A DNA stretch of 64,000 nucleotides from Tetraselmis striata (taxonomy: Eukaryota; Chlorophyta; Chlorodendrophyceae; Chlorodendrales; Chlorodendraceae). Below, piece after piece: positions 518 through 55,215 of the stretch. The notes under the pieces are model-generated. The model saw only the letters and a list, made by a program, of their open reading frames with translations, had not been told where the DNA came from and did not search any database. Position numbers and translations under genes: made by a program. The DNA is taken from positions 26,150-90,149 of the forward strand of contig VCJN01001108.1 of the NCBI GenBank assembly GCA_006384855.1, in the 5' to 3' direction. Position 1 is the first letter of the stretch. Each line of letters begins with the position of its first letter.

Positions 518-3500
518 CTTGGCGCCGCGCTGCCCCGGCCGCCGCGCCTTGGCGCCGCGCTGCCCCGGCCGCCGCGCCTTGGCGCCGCGCTGCCCCGGCC
601 GCCGCGCCTTGGCGCCGCGCTGCCCCGGCCGCCGCGCCTTGGCGCCGCGCTGCCCCGGCCGCCGCGCCTTGGCGCCGCGCTGCCCCGGCCGCCGCGCCTT
701 GGCGCCGCGCTGCCCCGGCCGCCGCGCCTTGGCGCCGCGCTGCCCCCGGCCGCCGCGCCTTGGCGCCGCGCTGCCCCGGCCGCCGCGCCTTGGCGCCGCG
801 CTGCCCCGGCCGCCGCGCCTTGGCGCCGCGCTGCCCCGGCCGCCGCGCCTTGGCGCCGCGCTGCCCCGGCCGCCGCGCCTTGGCGCCGCGCTGCCCCGGC
901 CGCCGCGCCTTGGCGCCCGCGCTGCCCCCGGCCGCCGCGCCTTGGCGCCGCGCTGCCCCGGCCGCCGCGCCTTGGCGCCGCGCTGCCCCGGCCGCCGCGC
1001 CTTGGCGCCGCGCTGCCCCGGCCGCCGCGCCTTGGCGCCGCGCTGCCCCGGCCGCCGCGCCTTGGCGCCGCGCTGCCCCGGCCGCCGCGCCTTGGCGCCG
1101 CGCTGCCCCGGCCGCCGCGCCTTGGCGCCCGCGCTGCCCGGCCGCCGCGCCTTGGCGCCGCGCTGCCCCGGCCGCCGCGCCTTGGCGCCGCGCTGCCCCG
1201 GCCGCCGCGCCTTGGCGCCGCGCTGCCCGCCGCCGCGCCTTGGCCCGCGCTGCCCGGCCGCCGCGCCTTGGCGCCGCGCTGCCCCGGCCGCCGCGCCTTG
1301 GCGCCGCGCTGCCCCGGCCGCCGCGCCTTGGCGCCGCGCTGCCCCGGCCGCCGCGCCTTGGCGCCGCGCTGCCCCCGGCCGCCGCGCCTTGGCGCCGCCT
1401 GCCCCGGCCGCCGCGCCTTGGCGCCGCGCTGCCCCGGCCGCCGCGCCTTGGCGCCGCGCTGCCCCGGCCGCCGCGCCTTGGCGCCGCGCTGCCCCGGCCG
1501 CCTGCGCCCTTGGCGCCGCGCTGCCCCCGGCCGCTCGCGCCTTGGCGCCGCGCTGCCCCGGCCGCGCGCGTTGGCGCCGCGCTGCCCCGGCCCGCCGCGC
1601 CTTGGCGCCGCGCTGCCCCGGCCGCCGCGCCTTGGCGCCGCGCTGCCCCGGCGCCGCGCCCTTGGCGGCCGCGCTGCCCCGGCCGCCGCGCCTTGGCGCC
1701 GCGCGCCCGGCCGCCGCGCCTTGGCGCCCGCGTGCCCCGGCCGCCGCGCCTTGGCGCGCGCTGCCCCGGCCGCCGCGCGTTGGCGCCGCGCTGCCCCGGC
1801 CGCCGCGCCTTGCGCCGCGCTGCCCCCGGCCGCCGCGCCTTGGCGCCGCGCTGCCCCGGCCGCCGGCGCCTTGGCGCCGCGCTGCCCCGGCCGCCGCGCC
1901 TTGGCGCCGCGCTGCCCCGGCCGCCGCGCCTTGGCGCCGCGCTGCCCCGGCCGCCGCGCCTTGGCGCCGCGCTGCCCCGGCCGCCGCGCCTTGGCGCCGC
2001 GCTGCCCCCGGCCGTTGCACGGCCCTTGGCGCCGCGCTGCCCGGCCGCCGCGCCTTGGCGCCGCGCTGCCCCGGCCGCCGCGCCTTGGCGCCGCGCTGCC
2101 CCGGCCGCCGCGCCTTGGCGCCGCGCTGCCCGGCCGCCGCGCCTTGGCCGCCGCGCTGCCCCGGCCGCCGCGCCTTGGCGCCCGCGCTGCCCCGGCCGCC
2201 GCGCCTTGGCGCCGCGCTGCCCCGGCCGCCGCGCCTTGGCGCCGCGCTGCCCCGGCCGCCGCGCCTTGGCGCCGCGCTGCCCCGGCCGCCGCGCCTTGGC
2301 GCCGCGCTGCCCCGGCCGCCGCGCCTTGGCGCCGCGCTGCCCCGGCCGCCGCGCCTTGGCGCCGCGCTGCCCCGGCCGCCGCGCCTTGGCGCCGCGCTGC
2401 CCCGGCCGCCGCGCCTTGGCGCCGCGCTGCCCCGGCCGCCGCGCCTTGGCGCCGCGCTGCCCCCGGCCGCCGCGCCTTGGCGCCGCGCTGCCCCGGCCGC
2501 CGCGCCTTGGCGCCGCGCTGCCCCCGGCCGCCGCGCCTTGGCGCCGCGCTGCCCCGGCCGCCGCGCCTTGGCGCCGCGCTGCCCCGGCCGCCGCGCCTTG
2601 GCGCCGCGCTGCCCCGGCCGCCGCGCCTTGGGCCCGCGCTGCCCCGGCCGCCGCGCCTTGGCGCCGCGCTGCCCCGGCCGCCGCGCCTTGGCGCCGCGCT
2701 GCCCGGCCGCCGCGCCTTGGCGCCGCGCTGCCCCCGGCGCCGCGCTTGGCGCCGCGTGCCCGCCGCCGCGCCTTGGCGCCGCGCTGCCCGGCCGCCGCGC
2801 CTTGGCGCCGCGCTGCCCCGGCCGCCGCGCCTTGGCGCCGCGCTGCCCCGGCCGCCGCGCCTTGGCGCCGCGCTGCCCCGGCCGCCGCGCCTTGGCGCCG
2901 CGCTGCCCCGGCCGCCGCGCCTTGGCGCCGCGCTGCCCCGGCCGCCGCGCCTTGGCGCCGCGCTGCCCCGGCCGCCGCGCCTTGGCGCCGCGCTGCCCCG
3001 GCCGCCGCGCCTTGGCGCCGCGCTGCCCCGGCCGCCGCGCCTTGGCGCCGCGCTGCCCCGGCCGCCGCGCCTTGGCGCCGCGCTGCCCCGGCCGCCGCGC
3101 CTTGGCGCCGCGCTGCCCCGGCCGCCGCGCCTTGGCGCCGCGCTGCCCCGGCCGCCGCGCCTTGGCGCCGCGCTGCCCCGGCCGCCGCGCCTTGGCGCCG
3201 CGCTGCCCCGGCCGCCGCGCCTTGGCGCCGCGCTGCCCCGGCCGCCGCGCCTTGGCGCCGCGCTGCCCCGGCCGCCGCGCCTTGGCGCCGCGCTGCCCCG
3301 GCCGCCGCGCCTTGGCGCCGCGCTGCCCCGGCCGCCGCGCCTTGGCGCCGCGCTGCCCCGGCCGCCGCGCCTTGGCGCCGCGCTGCCCCGGCCGCCGCGC
3401 CTTGGCGCCGCGCTGCCCCGGCCGCCGCGCCTTGGCGCCGCGCTGCCCCGGCCGCCGCGCCTTGGCGCCGCGCTGCCCGGCCGCCGCGCCTTGGCGCCGC

Positions 3501-5015
3501 GCTGCCCCGGCCGCCGCGCCTTGGGCGCCGCGCTGCCCCGGCCGCCGCGCCTTGGCGCCGCGCTGCCCCGGCCGCCGCGCCTTGGCGCCGCGCTGCCCGG
3601 CCGCCGCGCCTTGGCGCCGCGCTGCCCCGGCCGCCGCGCCTTGGCGCCGCGCTGCCCCGGCCGCCGCGCCTTGGCGCCGCGCTGCCCCGGCCGCCGCGCC
3701 TTGGCGCCGCGCTGCCCCGGCCGCCGCGCCTTGGCGCCGCGCTGCCCCGGCCGCCGCGCCTTGGCGCCGCGCTGCCCCGGCCGCCGCGCCTTGGCGCCGC
3801 GCTGCCCCGGCCGCCGCGCCTTGGCGCCGCGCTGCCCCGGCCGCCGCGCCTTGGCGCCGCGCTGCCCCGGCCGCCGCGCCTTGGCGCCGCGCTGCCCCGG
3901 CCGCCGCGCCTTGGCCCCGCCCGCCGCCGCCTTGCCCGCGCTGCCCCGGCCGCCGCCTTGGCGCCGCGCTGCCCCGGCCGCCGCGCCTTGGCGCCGCGCT
4001 GCCCCGGCCGCCGCGCCTTGGCCGCCGCGCTGCCCGGCCGCCGCGCCTTGGCGCCGCGCTGCCCCGGCCGCCGCGCCTTGGCGCCGCGCTGCCCCGGCCG
4101 CCGCGCCTTGGCGCCGCGCTGCCCCGGCCGCCGCGCCTTGGCGCCGCGCTGCCCCGGCCGCCGCGCCTTGGCGCCGCGCTGCCCCGGCCGCCGCGCCTTG
4201 GCCCGCGCTGCCCCGGCCGCCGCGCCTTTGGCGCCGCGCTGCCCCGGCCGCCGCGCCTTGGCGCCGCGCTGCCCCGGCCGCCGCGCCTTGGCGCCGCGCT
4301 GCCCCGGCCGCCGCGCCTTGGCGCCGCGCTTGCCCGGCCGCCGCGCTTGGCGCCGCGCTGCCCGGCCGCCGCGCCTTGGCGCCGCGCTGCCCCGGCCGCC
4401 GCGCCTTGGCGCCGCGCTGCCCCGGCCGCCGCGCCTTGGCGCCGCGCTGCCCCGGCCGCCGCGCCTTGGCGCCGCGCTGCCCCGGCCGCCGCGCCTTGGC
4501 GCCGCGCTGCCCCGGCCGCCGCGCCTTGGCGCCGCGCTGCCCCGGCCGCCGCGCCTTGGCGCCGCGCTGCCCCGGCCGCCGCGCCTTGGCCCCGCTGCCC
4601 CGGCCGCCGCGCCTTGGCGCCGCGCTGCCCCGGCCGCCGCGCCTTGGCGCCGCGCTGCCCCGGCCGCCGCGCCTTGGCGCCGCGCTGCCCCGGCCGCCGC
4701 GCCTTGGCGCCGCGCTGCCCCGGCCGCCGCGCCTTGGCGCCGCGCTGCCCCGGCCGCCGCGCCTTGGCGCCGCGCTGCCCCGGCCGCCGCGCCTTGGCGC
4801 CGCGCTGCCCCGGCCGCCGCGCCTTGGCGCCGCGCTGCCCCGGCCGCCGCGCCTTTGGCGCCGCGCTGCCCCGGCCGCCGCGCCTTGGCGCCGCGCTGCC
4901 CCGGCCGCCGCGCCTTGGCCCCGCGCTGCCCCGGCCGCCGCGCCTTGGCGCCGCGCTGCCCCGGCCGCCGCGCCTTGGCGCCGCGCTGCCCCGGGCCGCC
5001 GCGCCTTGGCGCCTC
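518..5015. repeat. 30-bp GC-rich satellite, about 150 units
   Basis: Head-to-tail units of 30 bp, each reading roughly TTGGCGCCGCGCTG followed by CCCCGGCCGCCGCGCC. The unit is about 90% GC and has no A on the plus strand. Because 30 is divisible by three and the unit lacks stops, several frames stay open for more than 1,500 codons; in one frame a unit reads as the decapeptide APWRRAAPAA. That is a property of the repeat and not evidence of a gene. About 22 consecutive units between roughly 2820 and 3470 are identical, while 1500-1900 and 3915-3960 are full of small indels. Each unit contains the palindromes GGCGCC and CGGCCG. The array abuts a mobile-element gene on its right. Confidence 0.95.
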
Positions 5016-5039
5016 GCTGGGTATCGAGTCCTCCCCTCC

Positions 5040-9660: not shown

Positions 9661-12600
9661 ATGGCAGCAAGCGAGGAGGTCGGAGGCGGGCGGGAGGCGG
9701 AGCCGCTGGACCGCGTGAACGCCAACGTGGCGCTGGCCCCCGCCGAGTTTTACTGTGCGCTGACGGGTGGCGTGCTGGCGGACCCCGTGCGCGCGGAGGA
9801 CGGCCGCCTGTACAGCCGCACGGCGTTGGAGGCGCGGCTGGCGGCCGACGCCGCGGCAGGCAGGCCCAGCACGTCGCCGCACAGCGGGGAGCCGATGGGG
9901 GCGGCGCTCAGCCCGCCGGGGCCGGAGGTGGAGGCCGCTCTGGCGGCGTTTCGCGCGGCTCATGGCGGCGATCGGGCTGGCAACGAGAAGGTGGACGACG
10001 GCGAGGGCGGTGACGGTGGCGGCGGCGGCATCCAGTCGCTGAAGGAGCTGGGCCTCGTCTTCAGCCGGCTGGACCGGCTGCGCGACATCCTGGCCACCAC
10101 TCTGGAGGGCTGGCAGCCGCCGCAGCTGGTACGACGCCATCTCTGTCACGCGGCGGATAGCGACCAGCCCTGCATCGGCCAGTCACGTCCCCGCCCCTCC
10201 AATCCCGACGATGGTGGCGTTCAATCCTCCGCCACTCGCGCTGTTCGCCCCTCACTGCCTGCCGCTCCCCCCTCAAGAAAGCCATTAATTTCGCGCGCGC
10301 GCGGGGGGGGGGGGGGGGGGGGTTCCCTTTGCCATCCCTCGCTACTCCGACATAAGCTATGTCATTTATAAGAAGAAATGGTAAGGAACGTTGATATATC
10401 ACTTCATTCTTGATAATAACTACTCTCCCCTCTCCCTCAAAGCCCCCAACTAGAAAGAAGGAAATACAGGACCTTACCGGAGTAGCCACCTCCCTGCTTT
10501 GGGATGACTATCCTCCGCCGCCCATATCAATCATGACGCGAACCAACTGCACCGCAGCGGAAGATGCGAGCCTGCCGAGGCGCTGACGCGGCGGCTGCCC
10601 CACCCCGGCGGCCGCGCAGGTGGTGGTGGGCAGCGAGAGCGCGGGCAAGAGCACCCTGCTGGGCCGCCTCACCATGATGCCCATCTTCCCGCAGCACGAC
10701 CAGCTCTGCACGCGGCTGCCCATCCACGTTCGGCTGCGCCGCTGCTCCGTCGCGCGGCCGCCGCGGCTGGAGGTGTACGATAGCGTGCGGGGCGCCACGG
10801 TGGAGGGGCCGTGGGAGATCCCGATGGTGAGCCTGCGGCCCGCCGTGATACGCCTCACCGGATGGATGGGTCCTGGGACGGGGACGCCTGTGGTGAGGCG
10901 CGCGGGGCCAACCTGTGGAATGCCCGCTCGCCTGGCAGGGCAGCGGCTGGCGCGACATCCTGGCCAAGATGGAGGAGCTGGTGTGGGGGGAGGAGAACCA
11001 GGGGCGCGGCGTGCACACGGGGCGGCTGCTCATCGTGCACGTGGACTCGCCCAGCGTGCCGTCGCTGGACCTGGTGGACCTGCCGGGGCTGGTGCAGTCG
11101 CCGCCCGACATGGCCGCCGCCACGGACGCGCTCGTGCGGCGCTACATGGGCGCGCACACTGTGCACTCCATCTTCCTGGCCGTCGTGCCCGCCACCTCCA
11201 AGCCCAACGACTCCCGGGCGCTCGCGCTGCTGCAGGAGCACGGCGTGGAGGGGCGCACCATCGGTGTGCTCACCATGTGCGACGAGCTGCCGGCGCGCAA
11301 GGTGGAGCGGCTGCGCGAGCGCATGGAGGAGCCGCCCGCGGGCGCGGCGGACGACTTCGAGGCCCTGGCCGCCTGGCTGGCCGCGCCGGTCATGGGCGAC
11401 ACGGTGCGCAAGCTCCCCCCCCCCCCCCCCCTCTCCTCCCCACTGCTGCTACCCCCTCAAGCAGGGGTACTCGTGCCTCCATGGGTCCAAGGTCAACGCT
11501 TTCTCTATTCCCAGCTTATCTCTCCCCGCTTTTTTTCTTCCCAGCTTCTCTCTCCATGTTTGCCATGTTTGAATCCTTGTCGGCAGTACTCCGCCGTCCC
11601 GCGGCAGAGGGCTTTCAGTTGTGTGCCGATGTGCCAGAATGCTCGGTCAGCCCAGTGAGGGGAATAGGGGGGTTGGGGGGGGGGGGGGGGGGGGCGAGGA
11701 ATCCTGCACTTTGTGGAGAGGTATCCGCGTGCTCCGCGACCACGGCAGTGCAGCCTTTGTGCCGATGGCTTGTTATGGGTGTTTAATAGTCAGCACTACC
11801 CAGCGCGTGTGCTCACACCCCGGGACGGCTTGACGCTCGCCATCCCCCCTCCCCCTTGGGGCACAGAGGGCCGGGTGGAGGGGAGATTGGGGGTTCTTAG
11901 GTGTGGCACTAGGTATAAACAAACCAGTCTACGAGTTAGGATGGACGTTGTCAATTTGAATAAAAACAGAAGCTGTGTTGACAGTTTAATTTTTTTTTAA
12001 GAGAACTGACAGATACATCTTGGTCTGATTGCGAATCGATATCGGATAGCACTAAGTACACTGTTTGAGTTTACATTGCCCCGTTGAGTATGGCGGACTT
12101 CGTTCACATTCATTATCTGCAATTTTCGGGCAGTCGACCAGGTGCGGAAATTTCCAAGTCCGGGTGGTACTGGTACCGGACTAATCCTTACCGGTACCGG
12201 TACGAGTAGCGTCAAGTAATTCTAAGTCATTCGGTATATCTAAGCGGAAATTAAAAAGTCCGGGTGGTACCGGACTAATCCTTACCAGTACCGGTACGAG
12301 TAGCGTCAAGTAAGTCTAAGTCATTCGGTATATCTAAGCGGAAATTAAAAAGTCCGGGTGGTACCGGACTAATCCTTACCAGTACCGGTACGAGTAGCGT
12401 CAAGAAATTCTAAGTCATTCGGTATATCTAAGCGGAAATTAAAAAGTCCGGGTGGTACCGGACTAATCCTTACCAGTACCGGTACGAGTAGGGTCATGTA
12501 ATTCTTAGTCATACGGTATATCGAAGCGTGTAAATACCGTATATATAAACGTGCATATATATAGCGCATAGATCTACTGGTGAGGATTACCTAGCGCGTT

Positions 12601-15123
12601 TGGCAAGGATGTTTGGCAGACATGAAGGATTACTCGTATTTCTTACTATCGCGTCCAAACAGAGTATGTTACGATGGAACATCAGCAGTGCTAGAAGGAG
12701 AAAAACGCTGCAAGGGTGGTAAAACACGGCCCGGCACCGCCGTTTAGAACTTTCTGACACCCACGCGCGCTGGTATCTACGAGGACCATTCCACTGGGTA
12801 GGTAGGTAGAGCGCAGACCGGCATGCAATACAAACCCCCATCGCTCCTGGCGCTCCGCAAGGGTCACTGGCGCTCACCCGGCTGCAGCGTTGCTTTGCCA
12901 AGCAGGTGCCAAAAGCATGCCTTGGCGCTCATGGGGTGCTGCTGCCTGTGCTGTTGAAGAGGGGGGCAGGGGGGGGGGGGGGGGGCTGACGGGTGCGCGC
13001 CGCCGCTGCGCAGGTGCGGCTGGCCAACGGCTACGTCGCGACGGCCAACGAGCCGCTGAGCGTGGGGGATCCGGCGCGGCACAGCGGCGGCGGCGCGCTG
13101 GACAGCGCGTACGCGGTGCTGCACGAGCAGGCGGCGGCGGAGGTGTCGTGGTTCGAGGGCGCCGGCATGGGCGACCTCGTGGCCGCGGGGCGCGCCACCT
13201 GCAACGGCCTCGTGGGCCGCGTGAACCGGCTGTTCCTGGACTACATCCGCTCCACCTGGGTGCCCGTCACGCTGTTCAAGCTGCAGCAGGAACGGCAGCA
13301 GCTGGCGTTTCTCAACGCGGCGCTCGGGCTGCCGGAGGCCGCGCGAGGGCGCGGGCGCCGCAGGACACCGACGCGGTGCGCGGCATGGCAGTGCGCGCGG
13401 CCGCAGACGCGGTGGGGCGCGCGCTGCCGGGCATGATGCAGGCGTACATGGCGCAGCTGCGCGCGCTGCGCGCCCGGCTGGCGGCGGCGGTGCCGGCGGA
13501 GGCGGTGCTGCTGCCGGAGGAGCTGGAGGCGCGCTGGTTTGGGCTGGCGGAGACGCTGCTCGAGGAGTGCGCCGCCTTCCTCAGCCAAACGGAGGCCTTT
13601 TGGGTGCAGCAGGTGCGGCAGCTCGGCCCCGCGTATCCGCCGCGTTGCCAGCAAGCACACGGATCCGCGTTGCGCCATGGAGTCGGAGCTCTGGTGGTAG
13701 TGGATGCTCTTATATCTCATATCGTATATATATTTTATATATGAATATAAATAAAAAGTATATATATGTACATATGTATATATATGTATGTGTGTATATA
13801 TCTATGTATATATAGATGGTATGAGGTCACATGGCGGGTGATAGTAGGATTTACCATCTCGACCGGCATGAGCATGGGCATGGCATGCTGCTACCTGCGC
13901 ATCCCAGCTAGGTGGTGCACCCGCGAAGAACAAGCAACAAAAGAGGGGAGGGAGTTGTTTTCGTGTGGAGAGAGGGGTGTGTTGGGGGGGGGGGGGGGGG
14001 AGGGGGGTGTGGGAGAGGGGGCTGCAATGCGCGGAAATGCGTGCGCTCTTGCTGGCTGGTAGAGCACGGACATTCAGCCCGATGAGATAGGGCGCGTACT
14101 CCGCAGACTCCTTCGGTTACGTAGATCATTCGGATTCCGCCAACAGAACTCAGCAAAAAGGAATATGTGTGATTGACGGCACGATGTCTCCGATTATTCT
14201 GGATGCATCATGGCGCCGCCCCCCCCCCCCCCCCCCCCCCCCCCAACCCCCCCTTCTGTTGCCGAACCCTGCATCGACTGAGGTTACGCCCCTACCCCTG
14301 CCCCTGCCCTGCTTGCCGCATTTTATCAGGTACGCGCGGTGCTGAGCCGGCGCATGCCGCAGCCGGAGTGGCCCTCGCCCGGCGCGGTGGCGCTCCTGTC
14401 GGGCGCAGCCCCCATGTTCCAGCTGTCGCGCTTCCCGCGCTTCATCGAGGCGGTGATGTCGCGCCTCGGCACCGTCCTGGCGGGCGAGCACCGCTCGAGC
14501 ACCGTCGCGTCCGTGGAGGCGTTCGTGGACCGCTTCTTCGACGAGCTGCAGCCCAACCCGCACGTGACCCTGGCGCCCGACTTTTTGGCGAGCCCCGCGA
14601 GCGTGCGGGTGCGCTGCGACACCGCCGCGCTGGTGGACACGCTGCTGCTCGTCTTCATGCGCCACGGCACGGCGCTCGTCCAGCGGTGGCTGCTGCCCGA
14701 GCTGGAGGACGCGGCGGCCGACCTGGACGCCTGGCACGAGGCGTGCGGCGCGGAGCGCGAGGCGCTGCGGGAGCGCGCCGCCGACGTGGAGAGCGCGCTG
14801 CGGCAGGTGCGGCAGCTGCTGCCGGCCGAGCCGCCGCGGGGCACAGGTGAGAGGCCCCACAGGGCGGCTGCGCGGGGGAAGGCCCGGGGGGGGGGGGGGG
14901 GGGGGGACCCTGTATTGTTGATGCGGACTGTCATAGTTTCTTATTTGGGATATGCTTACAATCAGTATTGTTTTAAGTTGTCGTGTTAGTTGCCGTCAAA
15001 CCGTAACAATTCAGAATATGTCGACGATAATTGCGAATGATGTTTTCCATCGTGTGGCAGATAATTATTGATGCCTTTGCAATTAACTGATCCGCAATTT
15101 ATATATATATATATATATATATA

Positions 15124-15185
<62 letters not shown>

Positions 15186-17142
15186 CAAGAATTTACCTTT
15201 GCAGTTGATACCCCTGCGATCCGTACCAGTAGCAATGTTCGCAGTATGAAGACAGTTACATGTGAAGAGATATAATCCTTACAATACGTAATAATGTGTA
15301 TCTTTTAACTATGTGACTGAGCGAAACGCAGGACTGTGAGCAGGCTGTGAGTCAACCATTAAATGTGGCCAATGCTCCTGTCGTGCGTATCGTTTTTTTC
15401 GTTGCATAAATATACTGGGCTGTAAGTATGCACCATTATACATGAGACTCATAGTCAGCAGCGCCTCTATTAGTATGCGAACCGCAGGATGTTCTCCACT
15501 CGAGCGTTCTCCGCGGTATTTTGTGATGATATCATACCTTTATCAACTGGCTATTTTGAAAGCAAATATCGATGTTAAGATGGAAAGCTTTTGCTCTTCT
15601 ATGGTAATCCCCTTGTGTAATTTACACGTCCTGAAATTCGCAATCTCTGACATCGATACTTGCCCCATTCTCCCGCCTGTCCCCGCTGGCCCGCTATCAG
15701 GAGCGTCATCAGGGGAGCAGCAGTCGCAGCTCCGCGGCGGCGGGGGCGACCTGCAGGCGGTGTCCATCGCGCACTGCAAGGTATCCGGCGAGTGCCTGCA
15801 GCGTGGCGTGCTGGTGGCTGGTCAGTCGGCCGAGCTGACGATCTGGGCGGGCGACTTCGAGGGCGCCCCCCTCACTGTCGGCGACATGCCCTTCGCCGTC
15901 TCGGTGTACAGCAGCCAGTCGTCGGAGTCAGCGGAGAGTGGCGCCAGCGACACGAAAGATCCAAGGCTGTCTGCGACAGACGACGAGGTGCCGCTGGTCA
16001 CCACCGCGGCGCAATGGGACTCGGACGCCGGGCTGTATCGGGCCCACCTGCTCATGCCGCCCGGCCCTGCAGCGACCGTCTCGAGCGTTGGCGTCACCGT
16101 TGAGCTGCACGGCACCGCGCTGGCGGGCAGTCCGTTCCAGCTGGTGCTCACGCGCGTCGCAGCGGAGGCCTGCAGCGCCTCGGGGTCGGGCCTGGAGTAT
16201 GCTGAGCCGGGACAGGCGGCCTCCGTATCGGTGCACTTCGCGGACGTGTGCGGCTCGTCGGTGCCAGGGTCGGGTGCCTCGCTGGAGGCCGCTCTAGTCG
16301 TCGCCCCGAGTGCTGGCCGCCCCGCGGAGATTGACACCAAAACCTTCGAGCACGACGCGGTCGACGCCGCTCCGGCGACTATGCGGTCGGTGTCCGGCCG
16401 GGCGTGGGTGGAGGAGATGAACGGCGGCGCCGGTGACGCGGTTGTGCGATTCACGGTGGATGAGGCCGAGCGGCTGTCGGAGGTGGGGCTGGCCGTGCGG
16501 CTGTACGGGCGTCACATCGCCGGCAGCCCCTTCCGCGTGCCCGTCAAGCTCGCGCCGTTGGGCCTGGCGCCCGGCGTGCTCCGCCGCTTGCCGCTGTCGG
16601 CGCTCGGCGACGAGTGGGCGCTCGCGTACGACGCGCCGTACAGCCACGCAACCATGGTTGGCGACTTTCCGGCCTGCGGCGAGTGGCTGTTCGTGTGCGC
16701 GGTGCTCGAGGGCGAGAGCACCGCCGCGCTCGGCGCTTTCGGGCGGCGCGACGAGGTGGCGAGGGACCACACCGGCAGCGACAGCGTCGCGGCGCCGCAC
16801 CATGGCGCGTTCTGGTACTGGCGCCCCGGCCGCGCGGTCGGCTTTGCGCCCAACGGCCGCATCGCGCTCAACCACGCCGACACCTGCGACGAGGGCGCCG
16901 AGGAGCGCCTCAGCTGGCACTTTCACCAGAGCGGCAACGGCGGCTGGCGCGTCGGCGGCGTGAAGGGCCTCGAGAAGGACCCCCTCAAGTGGCGCAAGCG
17001 CGTGTACGTGTGGCCTGCCGCGGCCTTCGCTGGGCCCCCCGCCCCGGCTCCCGCCGCCTTGCCCGCCGCCTCACCCATGCGCAAGGACGCCGCCGCAGCG
17101 AGGGCAGATAGCGCCGGCGATCTGCTGGATGATGGCCAGTAG
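9661..17142 (+). CDS. U-box / dynamin-type GTPase / filamin-repeat fusion protein
   Basis: Predicted protein of about 1,230 residues. Six exons: 9661-10128, 10620-10826, 10939-11403, 13014-13612, 14330-14846, 15701-17142. All junctions are GT-AG; the first four are phase 0 and the last phase 1, matching on both sides. Residues ~27-101 resemble a U-box (FYCALTGGVLADPVRAEDG), the E2-binding fold of ubiquitin ligases. A dynamin-like GTPase follows: G1 GSESAGKST (160-168), G2 Thr in LCTRLP, G3 DLPG (272-275), G4 TMCD (337-340) instead of the usual TKxD. Exons 4-5 are helical, like a dynamin stalk. Exon 6 has two filamin-type Ig repeats (LAGSPFQLVL and IAGSPFRVPV) and an unidentified C-terminal domain rich in Trp and Gly (GGWRVGGVKGL). 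Exon 4 is 599 nt between two phase-0 junctions, and its frame shifts near 13340-13370, so an indel or sequence error is present. ATG 9661 lies in GCGATGG. Inference: a membrane-remodelling GTPase with a ubiquitin role. I know no named family with this domain order. Confidence 0.8.
12130..12535. repeat. Four-unit tandem repeat of 94-100 bp in intron 3
   Basis: AAGTCCGGGTGGTAC recurs at 12156, 12256, 12350 and 12444. Each unit also holds ACTAATCCTTACC, palindromic CCGGTACCGG-like sequence and CATTCGGTATATC. It sits wholly inside the 1.6-kb third intron of the U-box/dynamin gene. Confidence 0.9.
13690..13830. repeat. AT-rich low-complexity tract in intron 4
   Basis: Dense TATATA/TATGTA sequence inside intron 4 of the U-box/dynamin gene, in sharp contrast to the GC-rich exons. 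G runs (near 13985) and C runs (14219-14244) lie further along the same intron. Confidence 0.8.
15097..15182. repeat. (AT)n microsatellite in intron 5
   Basis: About 85 bp of almost pure AT dinucleotide repeat with a single interruption near 15125, in the last intron of the U-box/dynamin gene. Confidence 0.95.
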
Positions 17143-23573: not shown

Positions 23574-26500
23574 TCACAGCAGCGGCTGCTGGGCCTGCAG
23601 CAGCTGCCCGCTGACCGCCAGCAGTACCACCGCCGCCAGCATGCCGTCTCCGCCGCTGCCGCTGGCCTGCAGCGCGTTGCGCAGGCCCTTGGTGTACTTG
23701 TCCAGCATGTAGAGCGCGGCGGGGCTGGTGGTGAGGTGCCGCATGAGGCGCAGCCGGATGTCGTTGGACGCCTTGACAAAGAAGAGCCCCGCAAACAGCA
23801 GCACCTCCATCGAGTTGAGCGAGGAGCCTGCGCGGGGGGATGCCGCGGGGGGAAGCTTAGACGTACGACCACTACAGCCCTCCCTGCCCGTACAGCAGCG
23901 GTGCTAGTTGCAGGGCTAGGCAGCTTGTCCGGGCTAATGGCAGACCAAAGCAGCAACACTCAACTTAATGTTTGTACAGCTGGGAAGCCACTCTCATGCT
24001 CGTATTACCAACTGCCACATGTAGAGCAAGGACCCGGGGGTAGGGGGGGGGGGGGGGAGGGGAGGGGGGTGTCCACCGAGGAAGCCCTGCCAAAAGTAGG
24101 GCGGCAGGCTGAAGAAGGAGATGAAGAACTCGTTCATCGCCTTGGGGGGTAGCACCGCCAGGAGCTCCATGCCAAACACGTGGAACGCCGCCTGGGAGCG
24201 AGCCCGGGGGGGGGGGGGGGGGGGGGGGGCAGCCAGTCCACATATTTAGCCGCTACACTGCGTTCACATGCGATGGCCTCTTGTGCAGTCCAACAAGCCC
24301 AGGCCCTGGCTCCGGGCCCGGCAGGGCATTGCGCGGCGCACCTGGCGCTGCCTCTCCAGGGGCCACAGGACGTCCCAGATCTGCTCGCTCAGTTCGCCCA
24401 CGGTGGCCGTGTCGTTGGCCAGCGCGGCCAACATGCCCTCCGCGAGAACAGGCGCCTGTAGGTGAGCAGCAAGGGTGATTCGAGAGGGCGGCATCTCTCA
24501 GCGAGGGCGCTTCCAATGCAGGCAGCCAGGAGCACGACTCCCCATGGAAGCTGAGTTTCTGCATGTCTGCGTGTGCATAGGTGTACGGATGGCGGTAGAA
24601 GCTCTACTGGAAGTCAGGTATAGTTTCCTGGAGCTATATAGAAAGTACTTGAGAATTTGTTTTCCTCAAAAGGCGATTCGAATGTCACAACACCACCGGT
24701 CCGTTGTGGTGCAATGCTCCCTGGCGGCAGGGTGGGGGTCACACACCTCGCGCATGGACCGCGCAATAGAGTAGCCGGTGGCGGGGTGGATCATGTTGGC
24801 GGCGGCACCAAAGGCGGTAACGCCTTGATCCCGCAGCGGCAGCGGCCCGCCCACGGGGATGTAGCTCCACTCCTCGTCCGCCACCTCCTCCACCTTGATG
24901 CCAAGCGCCCTGCACCGCCCGTCCACTGTCAGCCCGCCCGCCCCGTCCAAGCAATGGAAGCGCCCAAAGGGGGAGGGGGCAGGGGCGTACTGCAGGCGGC
25001 GCTCCAGGCGGCGCTTGAGCACAGGGAAGGGCACGCCCGGCTTGGCCACCAGCGCTGTCTCCTCCAGAAAGATGCGCCCGTTGCTCAGCGGCATCGCGTA
25101 CAGGAAGGACGGCACCTCACTGGCCGTGCCCCTGCAGGTGACAGAGTCAAGGGAGGTTGGTAGGGCGGCGGGGTGGGAGGGGGCTTGAGGGGCGGCATGG
25201 GACGATACCGAGCAGCTGGGCGAGGCATAGGCTTGCTTGGGGCAGGGGAGGAGAGGGGGGCAAGGTGGGCACCAGTAGCCATCGTTTCCGTTGGGGTGTG
25301 TCTTGGGCTGCGTCTCTAGCGCCATGCCCTCGTAGATGCCGCAGTGGTGGCGCCGGTAGTCCATAAACAGCATCTTGCTCAGGTCGTACACGTCCTCATA
25401 GCCAGACACCGTCGCCTGCCACAAGGGTAAATGATTGGTGCTTTGGGGTGGGGGGGGGGGGGCGCAGGGGAGGTGGCTTGCTGCACGGCAGGGCAACGGG
25501 GCCGCAGACTGGAATGGATGGGGCGCCCGTACCTCAATGCCGTACGCCGTCTGGGCAGCCACGGAGGAGCAGTGCTCCTCAAACTTCAGAAACTTGCCAG
25601 CGATGGCGCCGCTGGCAAGCGTAACGACGCGGCTGTGCAGCACGGGGCCGCTCTCGAGCGTCACGCTGCCTGTGGTCGCGCCCCTCTCTGCAACAACCTC
25701 CACCACCTTGCCTTCCAGGAACTCTACGCCAGCGTCGCGGCATTTCTGCACAGGATGTGGCGGTTTCCGAAACAAAGGGGGGGGGGGGGGGGGTGGAGGA
25801 CGGGGGGCATGAGCGACCAACAGTCACAGTGGTGGCGCAGAGCGCGGCCAAAAAGGACAGGCGGTGGATGATAGGGCGGTAAAGGCACTCAGGCCGGCAG
25901 AGTGCCGCACCTCCAGCAGCGTCGTCCTCAGAGCAGTGCGGTTGACTCGCCCGTACCCGCGCCCCAGCTGGAACTTGTCCTGCACAGAACCCCCGGGCCA
26001 TGAGAGGCAGAAGTGGGCAAAGCCCAGGCGCAAGGCTTCCGCATGCGCGCAAGGGGCTCACTTTCTCCTCAAGCCCAAAGTGGCAGACGGCGTCCTCCCA
26101 CACGTTGTCCAAGGTGTGCTCCAGACCGATTTTCTGAGGGAGGCGGGGCAAGGCGAGTAGCGGCTCAGCACCACCGCCTGCATGGTGTCGCTAACCGCAA
26201 GGTGCTTGCGGGCATCGCGAGCCCCACCTTGAACTCGTCCACCCAGACGCCGTAGTTGTTGGTGAACTTGCTGTCCAGCCCGACAAGGACCACCCGCACA
26301 CCACGCAACGCCAGCTCTGCCGCCAGCGCGAGCCCCGCCGGGCCGCAACCCACGACAGCGACGTCTACGACCTCCGTCGTCACGTCACCCGCATAGGCGC
26401 GGAGCACGCTGGAGATGGTGCCCTGCTCTGCCTCTGGCTTGGCCGCCTGCCGCAGAAAACATACGGCATTTGAGCGCTGGTTTAGGCAGGTATTGAATTA

Positions 26501-52609: not shown

Positions 52610-54566
52610 TCAACACAGCAAGCCGCCTAAAAGCGGCCCGCATCCCGCATAAGGCGGGATGGATGAGTGATGCGCACCTACACGGTTCAGAGTCCGGGCC
52701 ACGCGTGCACGTGTGTGTGTGGGTGATCCCCGGACGTGCTGTGCAGCTTCAGCAACGGGATGGCAGACGAATCCGCGCCGTCTGATGAGGCAGCGAGCGC
52801 GCTCTCGAGCGGCCACCAAGCTCAGGACCCCGAGGAAATCTCTTGCGAGCAAGGCCTCCTGGTGAGTCCGGGTGGTGCACCGAGTGCCCCGCGATGAGAG
52901 GGCACCCCGATCCGCAGCCAAGCATGCGATACCACGCACTGTGCAGCGCACCCCCTTGCTCACCTCACCCACTGTGCCGAAGACCATGCCCGTGTACTCC
53001 GACATGTCCGACATGATGTCGAGGACCCTTCTGTCCGGGCTCCGTGTTGTGCCACGCCGCATCCCGCGCAGCCAACCCCCGTTGTATGTCGCCCAACAGG
53101 GAGCGCTCAAACCGATCCACAGCCGTGGCCCGGGGCACTGCAGTGTACTTGACCCCGTACCGCATAGTCTTGAACTCCAGCTGCGTGGACTTCAAGCTCC
53201 GGGGATCATAGCTCCCGGTCACGACGTTGAACGCCGGAAGGGAGAGCTCTGCGTCCGGCACTAGGTCCTTGAGTTCATCCATGGGTACGGTGTTGCCGAG
53301 AGGCACTGCCTGCTGAAACAAGTCATCCACCTCCCGCCGTACCTTGATACCTAGGTCGTGAACACAGTGATCGCGGAAGGCATCTGCGATAGCGTCGTGC
53401 TGTACACGCCAGTGAGCGTCTCCAGGCGCCGGGAGGTTCATGAGCGCGTCGCCGTATAGGTCAACAGTGACGGGGTTGTGCTCCGTCGAGGGCAGAATGA
53501 TCTAGCTCCCAACCACCGGGGCCAAGCACGGGCTAGGCAGAAGGAAGTACCCGGCAGCGACCTCCCGCAGCTCATGCGGAGTCATGGCTGTCCGCGCGGT
53601 GGGGATGGCCACTGTCCACATGCCTGACGCCGCGTCGAGCTGGTTGAACAAGATCCGTTCCCTACATGTGGCAGGGAGAGCACACACCTCATTTCGAAGC
53701 CGAGAATTGTTGGCGTGGTCTAGAAATGCGGTCGGTTCCTTTTGCGAGCCCGACTCAGCCTCCACCTCCCGCTCTATCTGGCGCGCATCTGCGTCGCTGA
53801 GATGGCCTGCAGTACCTGCTTGGAGGTGGTCCCACGCCTCGCGCATCTCCGCGGCGTAGCTGTCCGACCGATGAGCATCGTTGAGGAAGTGGTCATACTG
53901 GCGGGCGGAAGAAGTTGCGTTGAAGCTGCCTCGGCCAAGTACGGACCCAAGCTGTGGGTCGAAGAAACCAGGGGTGGGGGTGTTGGTGCCGGAGTTCCTA
54001 GTCAGGCACCTTGGGAGGATGGCATTCATGCAGCCGGTGAAAGCGGCATCACGAACGGTAGCCATGCGGCGGATGCCAGATCCCTTCAACCGAGTGGGGA
54101 GGTGAAGCCTGCTGCGCGCCCTGGCCACTGCATCCTCGCTCAAGGTAGCCGCCTCCGCTGCCATGGGGTCGGAGTCGTGCAAAAGCTCCGCCAAGAAGTC
54201 GGTGACCACCGGATTGGAGTCGGTGCCGTACGTGGAGGGATCAAAAGAGACCCGTTCGACCGCCGCGAGGATGGTGGCATCCACCGCCTCCGCAAAGGCC
54301 TCCACCTCCGTATTGGTACCGCCATGGCCACTCCGCTGATGGAGTACTCGCCGGGTGCGACAAGCTCTTGTATACGAGTATCGTGTACGAGGTACTTGGA
54401 AACTCCGGCCGGCCGCACTGCGCGGACCACGGTTCTGACGACTATACTTCCGCAGTGAACTATGGAGGGGTGGGTCATCCACTCGCACAGAGAGGGGTTC
54501 TCCCGCTGCTCGTCCAAGCTTCAAAAGCGTCCGGTCGGGCACTGGCGCTGCAGGACTGCACGGCAT
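52610..54566 (-). mobile_element. LINE-like relic: reverse-transcriptase C-terminus plus nuclease-like domain
   Basis: Minus-strand protein-like sequence from 54566 reads ERILFNQLDAASGMWTVAIP followed by FLLPSPCLAPVV, matching the region after the reverse-transcriptase domain in many algal retroelement proteins. In the same frame, after one TAG at about 53502, it continues with LYGDALMNLPAPGDAHWRVQ and HDAIADAF, where related proteins have a GDH motif and an HD. Further on come LVPDAELSLPAF and LEFKTMRYG, an arrangement like PD-(D/E)xK nucleases. A second frame carries the usual tail (TGMVFGTVGEVS, about 53000-52960). The reverse-transcriptase core is absent. Family assignment rests on pattern recall, so treat as probable. 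Confidence 0.55.
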
Positions 54567-54599
54567 GGCTCCCTCCCCTCCATATTTGCAGTTTCGAGG

Positions 54600-55215
54600 C
54601 TTTCCGAGTGGCTTGACTGGGCAGCCTGAACTTGGCTTTGAGATGACAAAAGGTTGATGAATTGTATTATATAGCTGTGTGTATGAGTAGAGCAGCAGAC
54701 ATAGTCAAAAAAATCAGGAAAAGTAAAATCGAAAGGAAAAGGGAAGTCAAAACGAGGTTGAGCACCCGGATGCTTCGGTGCCCAGAGGTTCCGCACTTTT
54801 GCGGCCCGAGTCAGGCGTCGTTTGATCAGGCGTAAAATCTTGATAGGACATGCGCAACACCAACTGACTGCCTGTACAAGAGCGATAAAATGTTACAATG
54901 GCATCGACATGTGAAGTCGCGGTATGATATCGACGACCGCCCCACGGTGTTCACCACATCCGGCGCCAAGCGGATGGCATTTGCTGCTCGGTGCCGCGGT
55001 GCTCCCGCGGCTGTCCGATGACATTATCAGTGTGAGCGCCGGGCGCCCATCCTTCTCCGCCACTTTCCGACGGTTCCTCGGCCGCTTGCCGCACCGCAAA
55101 CTGGCCGCCGTGGGGCTGAGCATCGGTGAAGGGGTGACACGATGGTGTGGTTGACGGTGCTGCCCCGATGGGCCCGCTTCCCCTGCCTGAGGATCGACCC
55201 CCAGCTTGGCGGGCG
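54600..55215. other. Spacer between the LINE-like relic and the MCTP gene
   Basis: Short frames on both strands. 55020-55215 is the 3' flank of the MCTP gene. No separate gene recognised. Confidence 0.35.

Follow-up and report, generated by a model that had tools for sequence, protein, structure and literature searches.

The 64,000-nucleotide stretch of the Tetraselmis striata genome analyzed here (the window; G000:C879:26150-90149, from an assembly of 224 Mb in 2903 contigs) carries at 9661-17142 a gene whose predicted protein of approximately 1230 amino acids joins, over six exons, a U-box, a dynamin G domain, a divergent stalk, two filamin repeats, and a C-terminal domain. That the U-box, the dynamin GTPase, and the filamin repeats lie in this order in one gene, as the initial annotation had proposed, is well supported by the sequence, and they are presumably transcribed as one unit. 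With regard to function, we consider the chances about even that the protein is a multidomain E3 ubiquitin ligase with a dynamin-superfamily GTPase as its middle part, which would be switched by GTP and would self-assemble; its activity, oligomerization, control by GTP, and role toward substrates are all predicted.

All five introns have GT-AG boundaries with agreeing phases, and none of the 10 splice dinucleotides is altered in a sister copy found on contig C548, so the six-exon structure described earlier is borne out. C548 carries the whole gene on the opposite strand and is broadly collinear with the window from approximately 7.1 kb to 28.9 kb, where this contig ends; divergence between the two amounts to 0.5-1.7% in exons, 1.6-7.1% in introns, and 5-6% in the flanks, and the exon 6 protein is 99% identical. 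The ends of two exons are not unique: donors at 10785 and 10800 are likewise in phase for exon 2, and 11388, 15 bases earlier than the end adopted here, is also in phase for exon 3. Of the ends adopted, 10826 was picked by eye for its GTGAGC donor and 11403, likewise by eye, for the resemblance to dynamins; 11388 was used in some of the spliced translations. Third-codon GC content ranges from 88 to 99% across the exon frames, with 88% in exon 6 and 44% in the frame upstream of it, the latter as expected for an intron. At the first junction, exon 1 contains both the U-box and the first segment that can be aligned with dynamins; the phmmer alignment to the dynamin A chain begins at approximately 10069 in this exon and crosses into exon 2. 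At the last junction, C548 has an in-frame stop upstream of exon 6 and then no Met before the exon, so the two copies do not have in common a separate exon 6 gene starting from an ATG immediately ahead of it. Within exon 6 of the window, Met first occurs at residue 63, which already belongs to filamin repeat 1.

The dynamin part is the most readily recognized. The Pfam family Dynamin_N (cut-off 27) matched a 488-residue spliced piece with 61.8 bits, the whole translation with 59.3 bits, and the exon 3 frame alone with 28.5 bits, which places the protein in the dynamin superfamily; the P-loop and DLPG motifs noted earlier are intact. All of the 43 solved sequences matched at E<=0.01 belong to this superfamily, with classical dynamins and Mx among the best and a myosin-2/dynamin-A fusion chain (1jwy_A, E 6.8e-12) at the top. 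Beyond the G domain the picture is different. Only six families were matched at E<=1 by the whole translation, and Dynamin_M, GED, PH, and other membrane-binding families are absent from them, while L001, a further dynamin of this genome, is matched by both Dynamin_M and GED from the same profile library. When an alignment of the window protein with its relatives on C453, C232, and C139 was compared by hhalign with L001 or C190, stalk homology was not detected beyond the G domain. It is possible that the stalk is diverged rather than absent.

The U-box is degenerate and yet appears to be real. Its Pfam scores, 17.9 bits for exon 1, 15.4 for the spliced piece of 488 residues, and 13.8 for the whole translation, all stay below the cut-off of 21.4; against a profile built from 17 further U-boxes of the genome (out of 58 genome matches, 41 being left out), exon 1 reached 36.9 bits, compared to 9.4 bits for the best shuffle (20,000 shuffles of residues 21-105, of which 13,535 were reported). 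The earlier assignment of a U-box thus stands by the second measure and not by the first. The filamin repeats, which had been recognized from two AGSPF signatures, are above the Pfam cut-off of 26.9, with 42.7 bits in two stretches of exon 6 and 39.0 bits in the whole translation; repeat 1 alone scored 24.1 bits and is under it. Neither the U-box nor the filamin repeats of the window appeared among the matches when the genome was searched in six frames at E<=0.001. The only solved sequence that matched exon 6 is a filamin chain of TRIM3 (7o0b), at repeat 2. Neither RING nor B-box is among the six families matched by the whole translation, and the protein does not qualify as a TRIM protein.

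The C-terminus had been described as an unknown Trp/Gly-rich region. It indeed fits no family in the profile collections searched, but it can be delimited as a domain, and one further gene with this domain was found in the genome. Apart from the C548 copy, it matches a protein on contig C341 with 32-34% identity and 48.6 bits, whereas the best shuffle gave 11.9 bits (5000 made, 4556 reported); a genome search at E<=0.001 returned no match other than C548 and C341. The C341 protein starts with BTB (62.3 bits) and BACK (69.9 bits) domains, and six-frame searching of the genome gave at least eight BTB matches. BTB-BACK proteins are commonly CUL3 adaptors, and therefore this one domain appears to be attached behind two ubiquitin-ligase heads that are unrelated to each other, a sharing that points to a role in substrate recognition. 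No fitting family was found in Pfam, in NCBIfam (nothing), or in PHROGs (one match, E 0.24). A TLDc identity was considered and rejected, as no Pfam match appeared even at E 10 with the filters of the tool on. Viral contigs (queried with the alignment of this domain, exon 3, and a stalk/U-box piece of C190) and prokaryote contigs (queried with the domain alignment) yielded no relatives; distant ones are still possible in both, because scans of this type rely on a small number of short peptide patterns and mainly reach close relatives. The coordinates of all parts of the gene are as follows.

Table. Parts of the U-box/dynamin/filamin gene (window positions)
Feature	Strand	Positions	Content and remarks
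Exon 1	+	9661-10128	156 codons, open frame: ATG, U-box, segment ahead of the P-loop; donor GT at 10129 kept in C548
U-box domain, degenerate	+	9736-9963	Residues 26-101; Pfam 17.9 bits, own-genome profile 36.9 bits
Segment matching the N-terminal helix of dynamins	+	10036-10128	First bundle-signalling-element helix; helix predicted here
Exon 2	+	10620-10826	P-loop GSESAGKS, first part of G domain; Dynamin_N match from residue 156; splice sites kept
Exon 3	+	10939-11403	DLPG motif, second part of G domain; in phase; donor at 11404 kept in C548
Exon 4	+	13014-13612	End of G domain, start of divergent stalk; frame change within exon as assembled
Exon 5	+	14330-14846	Stalk/GED-like segment (GED-like by eye); no Pfam match above cut-off
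Exon 6	+	15701-17142	Two filamin repeats, C-terminal domain, tail, stop
Filamin repeat 1	+	15763-16155	First AGSPF; profile match 15763-15960, extended by eye to AGSPF
Filamin repeat 2	+	16159-16536	Second AGSPF; best stretch of the 42.7-bit Filamin match
C-terminal domain, unnamed	+	16588-17019	Common to one BTB-BACK protein of the same genome

A second pairing of U-box and dynamin was found on contig C190 (L018), the single contig common to the 23 Dynamin_N matches and the 58 U-box matches of the genome. Its G domain is matched in two open frames (with 47.7 and 43.8 bits), and downstream on the same strand, a further open frame contains both stalk-like sequence and a U-box scoring 57.5 bits; judged by their strand, their order, and the appearance of the sequence, these frames seem to form one gene. 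Both proteins would then have a U-box in addition to a dynamin G domain and stalk-like sequence, whereas the U-box is N-terminal in the window and C-terminal in C190, whose contig has no filamin match at E<=0.001. Their G domains also fall into different groups of a small tree. When the genome was searched with exons 1-5, relatives aligning over the first part of exon 4 were found at C453 (two places), C232, and C139 with 29-35% identity and at C872 with 31%, and a short P-loop piece of C190 showed 40%, with a score similar to that of C453 (36.3 and 36.4 bits). With C139 as the query, the window gave 50.3 and 43.0 bits and C190 31.0 bits. In a tree of eight G-domain fragments (141 columns), the window formed a group with C139 and C453, apart from C190, which fell with the remaining fragments including C872 (ultrafast bootstrap 93); C532 and C632 are partial in this tree, the other Dynamin_N matches were left out, no known Mx or DRP4 sequence is included, and the term Mx-like for C872 is a label with no computed basis. 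Because the tree separates the two G domains, U-box and dynamin probably met twice, in independent fusions of opposite order, as far as such a small tree can tell. In the C139 protein (L062), whose G domain is related to that of the window (33% identity), WD40 repeats (144.6 bits) precede the G domain, the repeats and a P-loop being encoded by a single open frame; no U-box match was found on its contig at E<=0.001.

Some further observations concern these dynamin and U-box families. The dynamin-like proteins of C453 and C232 (L060, L061, L063) end in Cys-x-Cys and are perhaps prenylated, and C2743 resembles, by eye, a decayed copy of the C453 type. An open frame on the minus strand of the window at 53502-54704, which has no Pfam match, is similar by eye to one at 7109-8404 of L060 that adjoins the C453 dynamin-like gene; the two probably represent a mobile element. 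C2280 (L048), which is in the Dynamin_N list, was rejected as a dynamin, since it reads by eye as an MnmE-like tRNA-modification GTPase; it occupies one long open frame and may stem from bacterial contamination or be an organelle-type gene. On a single strand of G000:C2725:82120-151422, there are eight U-box matches with one internal TAG apiece, mostly 10-11 kb apart with one interval of approximately 5.5 kb.

A number of observations weigh against an intact single gene for a GTP-switched ligase, and they are considered here together with the explanations that they would favor. As assembled, exon 4 of the window starts and ends in different frames. Three exonic indels separate the window and C548, each of one base, two of them in exon 4 and one in exon 5; exon 4 is open in C548 and not in the window, and exon 5 is open in the window and not in C548. 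The frame change in exon 4 is likely assembly noise, which is also the simplest reading of the reciprocal breaks, while a true inactivation of both copies is possible. The substitutions between the copies comprise 19 silent and 16 amino-acid-changing ones over all exons (6/2, 3/0, 1/2, 2/1, 1/4, and 6/7 for exons 1-6, respectively), so that changing differences exceed silent ones by seven to six in exon 6 and by four to one in exon 5; the counts are small, and exons 3, 5, and 6 show no clear sign of constraint. It is also conceivable, if quite improbable, that two adjoining genes, divided either between exons 5 and 6 or at exon 1, have been read as one by an erroneous gene model. The word TGTAA serves as a poly(A) signal in green algae, and two such words are present in intron 5, which is AT-rich with a (TA)n array, compared to none in the 3′ flank up to 17700. 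In addition, the frame of exon 6 in the window is open for 120 codons upstream and contains several Mets, so that a separate exon 6 gene is excluded through C548 alone, and an additional 5′ exon within intron 5 is possible. Such a division is opposed by the fitting phases, the splice sites kept in C548, the missing upstream Met of that copy, the fall of third-position GC in front of exon 6, and the dynamin homology that spans junction 1. The second, probably independent fusion is open to similar doubt: C190 has one frame change near the start of its last part, and what is seen there is a U-box and a dynamin as neighbors on one strand, from which we infer a single gene.

With regard to function, the initial annotation had envisaged a membrane-remodeling GTPase that ubiquitinates or is steered by ubiquitin. 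A membrane-remodeling dynamin that depends on its own U-box for control of its turnover or location, with the filamin repeats and the C-terminal domain docking the protein, would agree with the exclusively dynamin-superfamily solved matches and the intact P-loop and DLPG motifs; it is nevertheless rather unlikely, as the families of stalk, GED, and membrane binding are missing at E<=1 from a search whose library finds the first two in L001, even if a very diverged stalk could escape it. This claim is therefore not supported, and for the same reason we favor the ligase, toward which the C-terminal domain common with a BTB-BACK protein and the weak TRIM3 filamin match also point, with the GTPase as its switch. 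That preference has its own difficulties. Because stalk and GED homology is undetected, oligomerization is assumed; the fourth nucleotide-binding motif (G4), usually T/N-K-x-D, reads TMCD; and the TRIM3 match (E 0.011 for the whole sequence) has no single stretch that passes alone. The U-box itself, by profile alignment, has Ala instead of Pro after its first Cys (CALT in place of CP-I/L-T) and lacks the helix Trp, and one of the two amino-acid differences in exon 1 between the copies is a Thr-Pro change inside this domain. Together with the sub-threshold Pfam scores, these features would suit a dimerizing or docking element devoid of ligase activity in a protein that is a GTPase scaffold. We regard this as unlikely, considering that the U-box keeps Leu at the usual Ile/Leu position, the DPV and DG-x-x-Y-x-R cores, and the second-loop Pro, and that silent differences predominate in exon 1.

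If the protein is a GTP-switched ligase, its G domains would pair and its stalks oligomerize upon GTP binding, which would cluster the N-terminal U-boxes; the U-box would recruit a charged E2, the filamin repeats and the C-terminal domain would hold the target, and GTP hydrolysis would move the three-helix bundle beside the G domain. As described in PMC3747075, this bundle of dynamins consists of helices from both ends of the protein, including an N-terminal helix. Because it is built in this way, a U-box at either end of a dynamin could reach it, and the N-terminal U-box of the window and the C-terminal, post-stalk U-box of C190 may thus sit at the same bundle. A far more speculative and, in our opinion, improbable extension is that one protein unites an Mx-type assembling GTPase with a TRIM-type ligase; it would assemble around a multivalent target (for example, a damaged organelle or a viral particle) and attach ubiquitin to it on the spot, and with C190 and the WD40 dynamin it would form a modular, dynamin-centered surveillance repertoire.

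Compared to known systems, the closest parallel in layout is offered by TRIM2, TRIM3, TRIM45, and TRIM71, which are RING ligases with a filamin repeat. Both designs have an N-terminal E3 module and place filamin repeats in the target-binding half, whereas the RING of these TRIMs corresponds to a U-box in the window and their B-box and coiled coil to a dynamin GTPase; the window protein has two filamin repeats and an unrelated C-terminal domain. With the dynamin superfamily (dynamin A, Mx, and dynamin-1-like) it shares the G domain with P-loop and DLPG, and it differs in the U-box ahead, the filamin and C-terminal domains behind, the divergent stalk, and the altered G4. As a rule, dynamins and ubiquitin ligases are distinct proteins, each regulating the other. 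Plant U-box ligases (PUBs) likewise join the U-box to other modules, among which Arm and MCAfunc are named in PMC8049495; dynamin as a U-box partner was not found in the literature searched (dynamin, U-box, filamin, WD40, and algae). Chlorophytes possess DRP4/Mx-like dynamins according to PMC11326297, and in giant viruses, dynamins and U-box proteins are treated as separate families in the account of PMC11915834. No publication on such a fusion was found in the open-licence literature, where absence is weak evidence, and the earlier statement that no named family has this domain order is to this extent not contradicted.

In the rest of the window and in the introns, several other features were observed. 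Elsewhere in the genome, a light-harvesting protein resembles chlorophyll a-b binding proteins (60 of 105 matches listed), which makes a host of the green lineage likely. Intron 3 contains a 94-bp unit repeated 3.8 times at 12171-12528 (96% matches), and long poly-G or poly-C runs were seen by eye in four of the five introns (1, 3, 4, and 5; 10300-15180). A tandem array of approximately 150 copies of a 30-bp GC-rich unit occupies 518-5019 and lies in frames that are open for 1556-1804 codons on both strands, three on each. A lycopene cyclase match (147 bits, three stretches) is located on the minus strand at 24669-25823, and an Rfam scan gave no match in the window.

Considering that the covalent pairing of dynamin and U-box has seemingly arisen twice in one genome and in opposite orders, a direct linkage between an assembly switch and a ubiquitin ligase may well be useful. 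The gene raises the possibility of a novel type of protein-tagging machine under the control of GTP and would provide a compact system for asking whether GTP hydrolysis can gate ubiquitin transfer, while its unnamed C-terminal domain is a candidate substrate-recognition module that may serve two different kinds of ligases.

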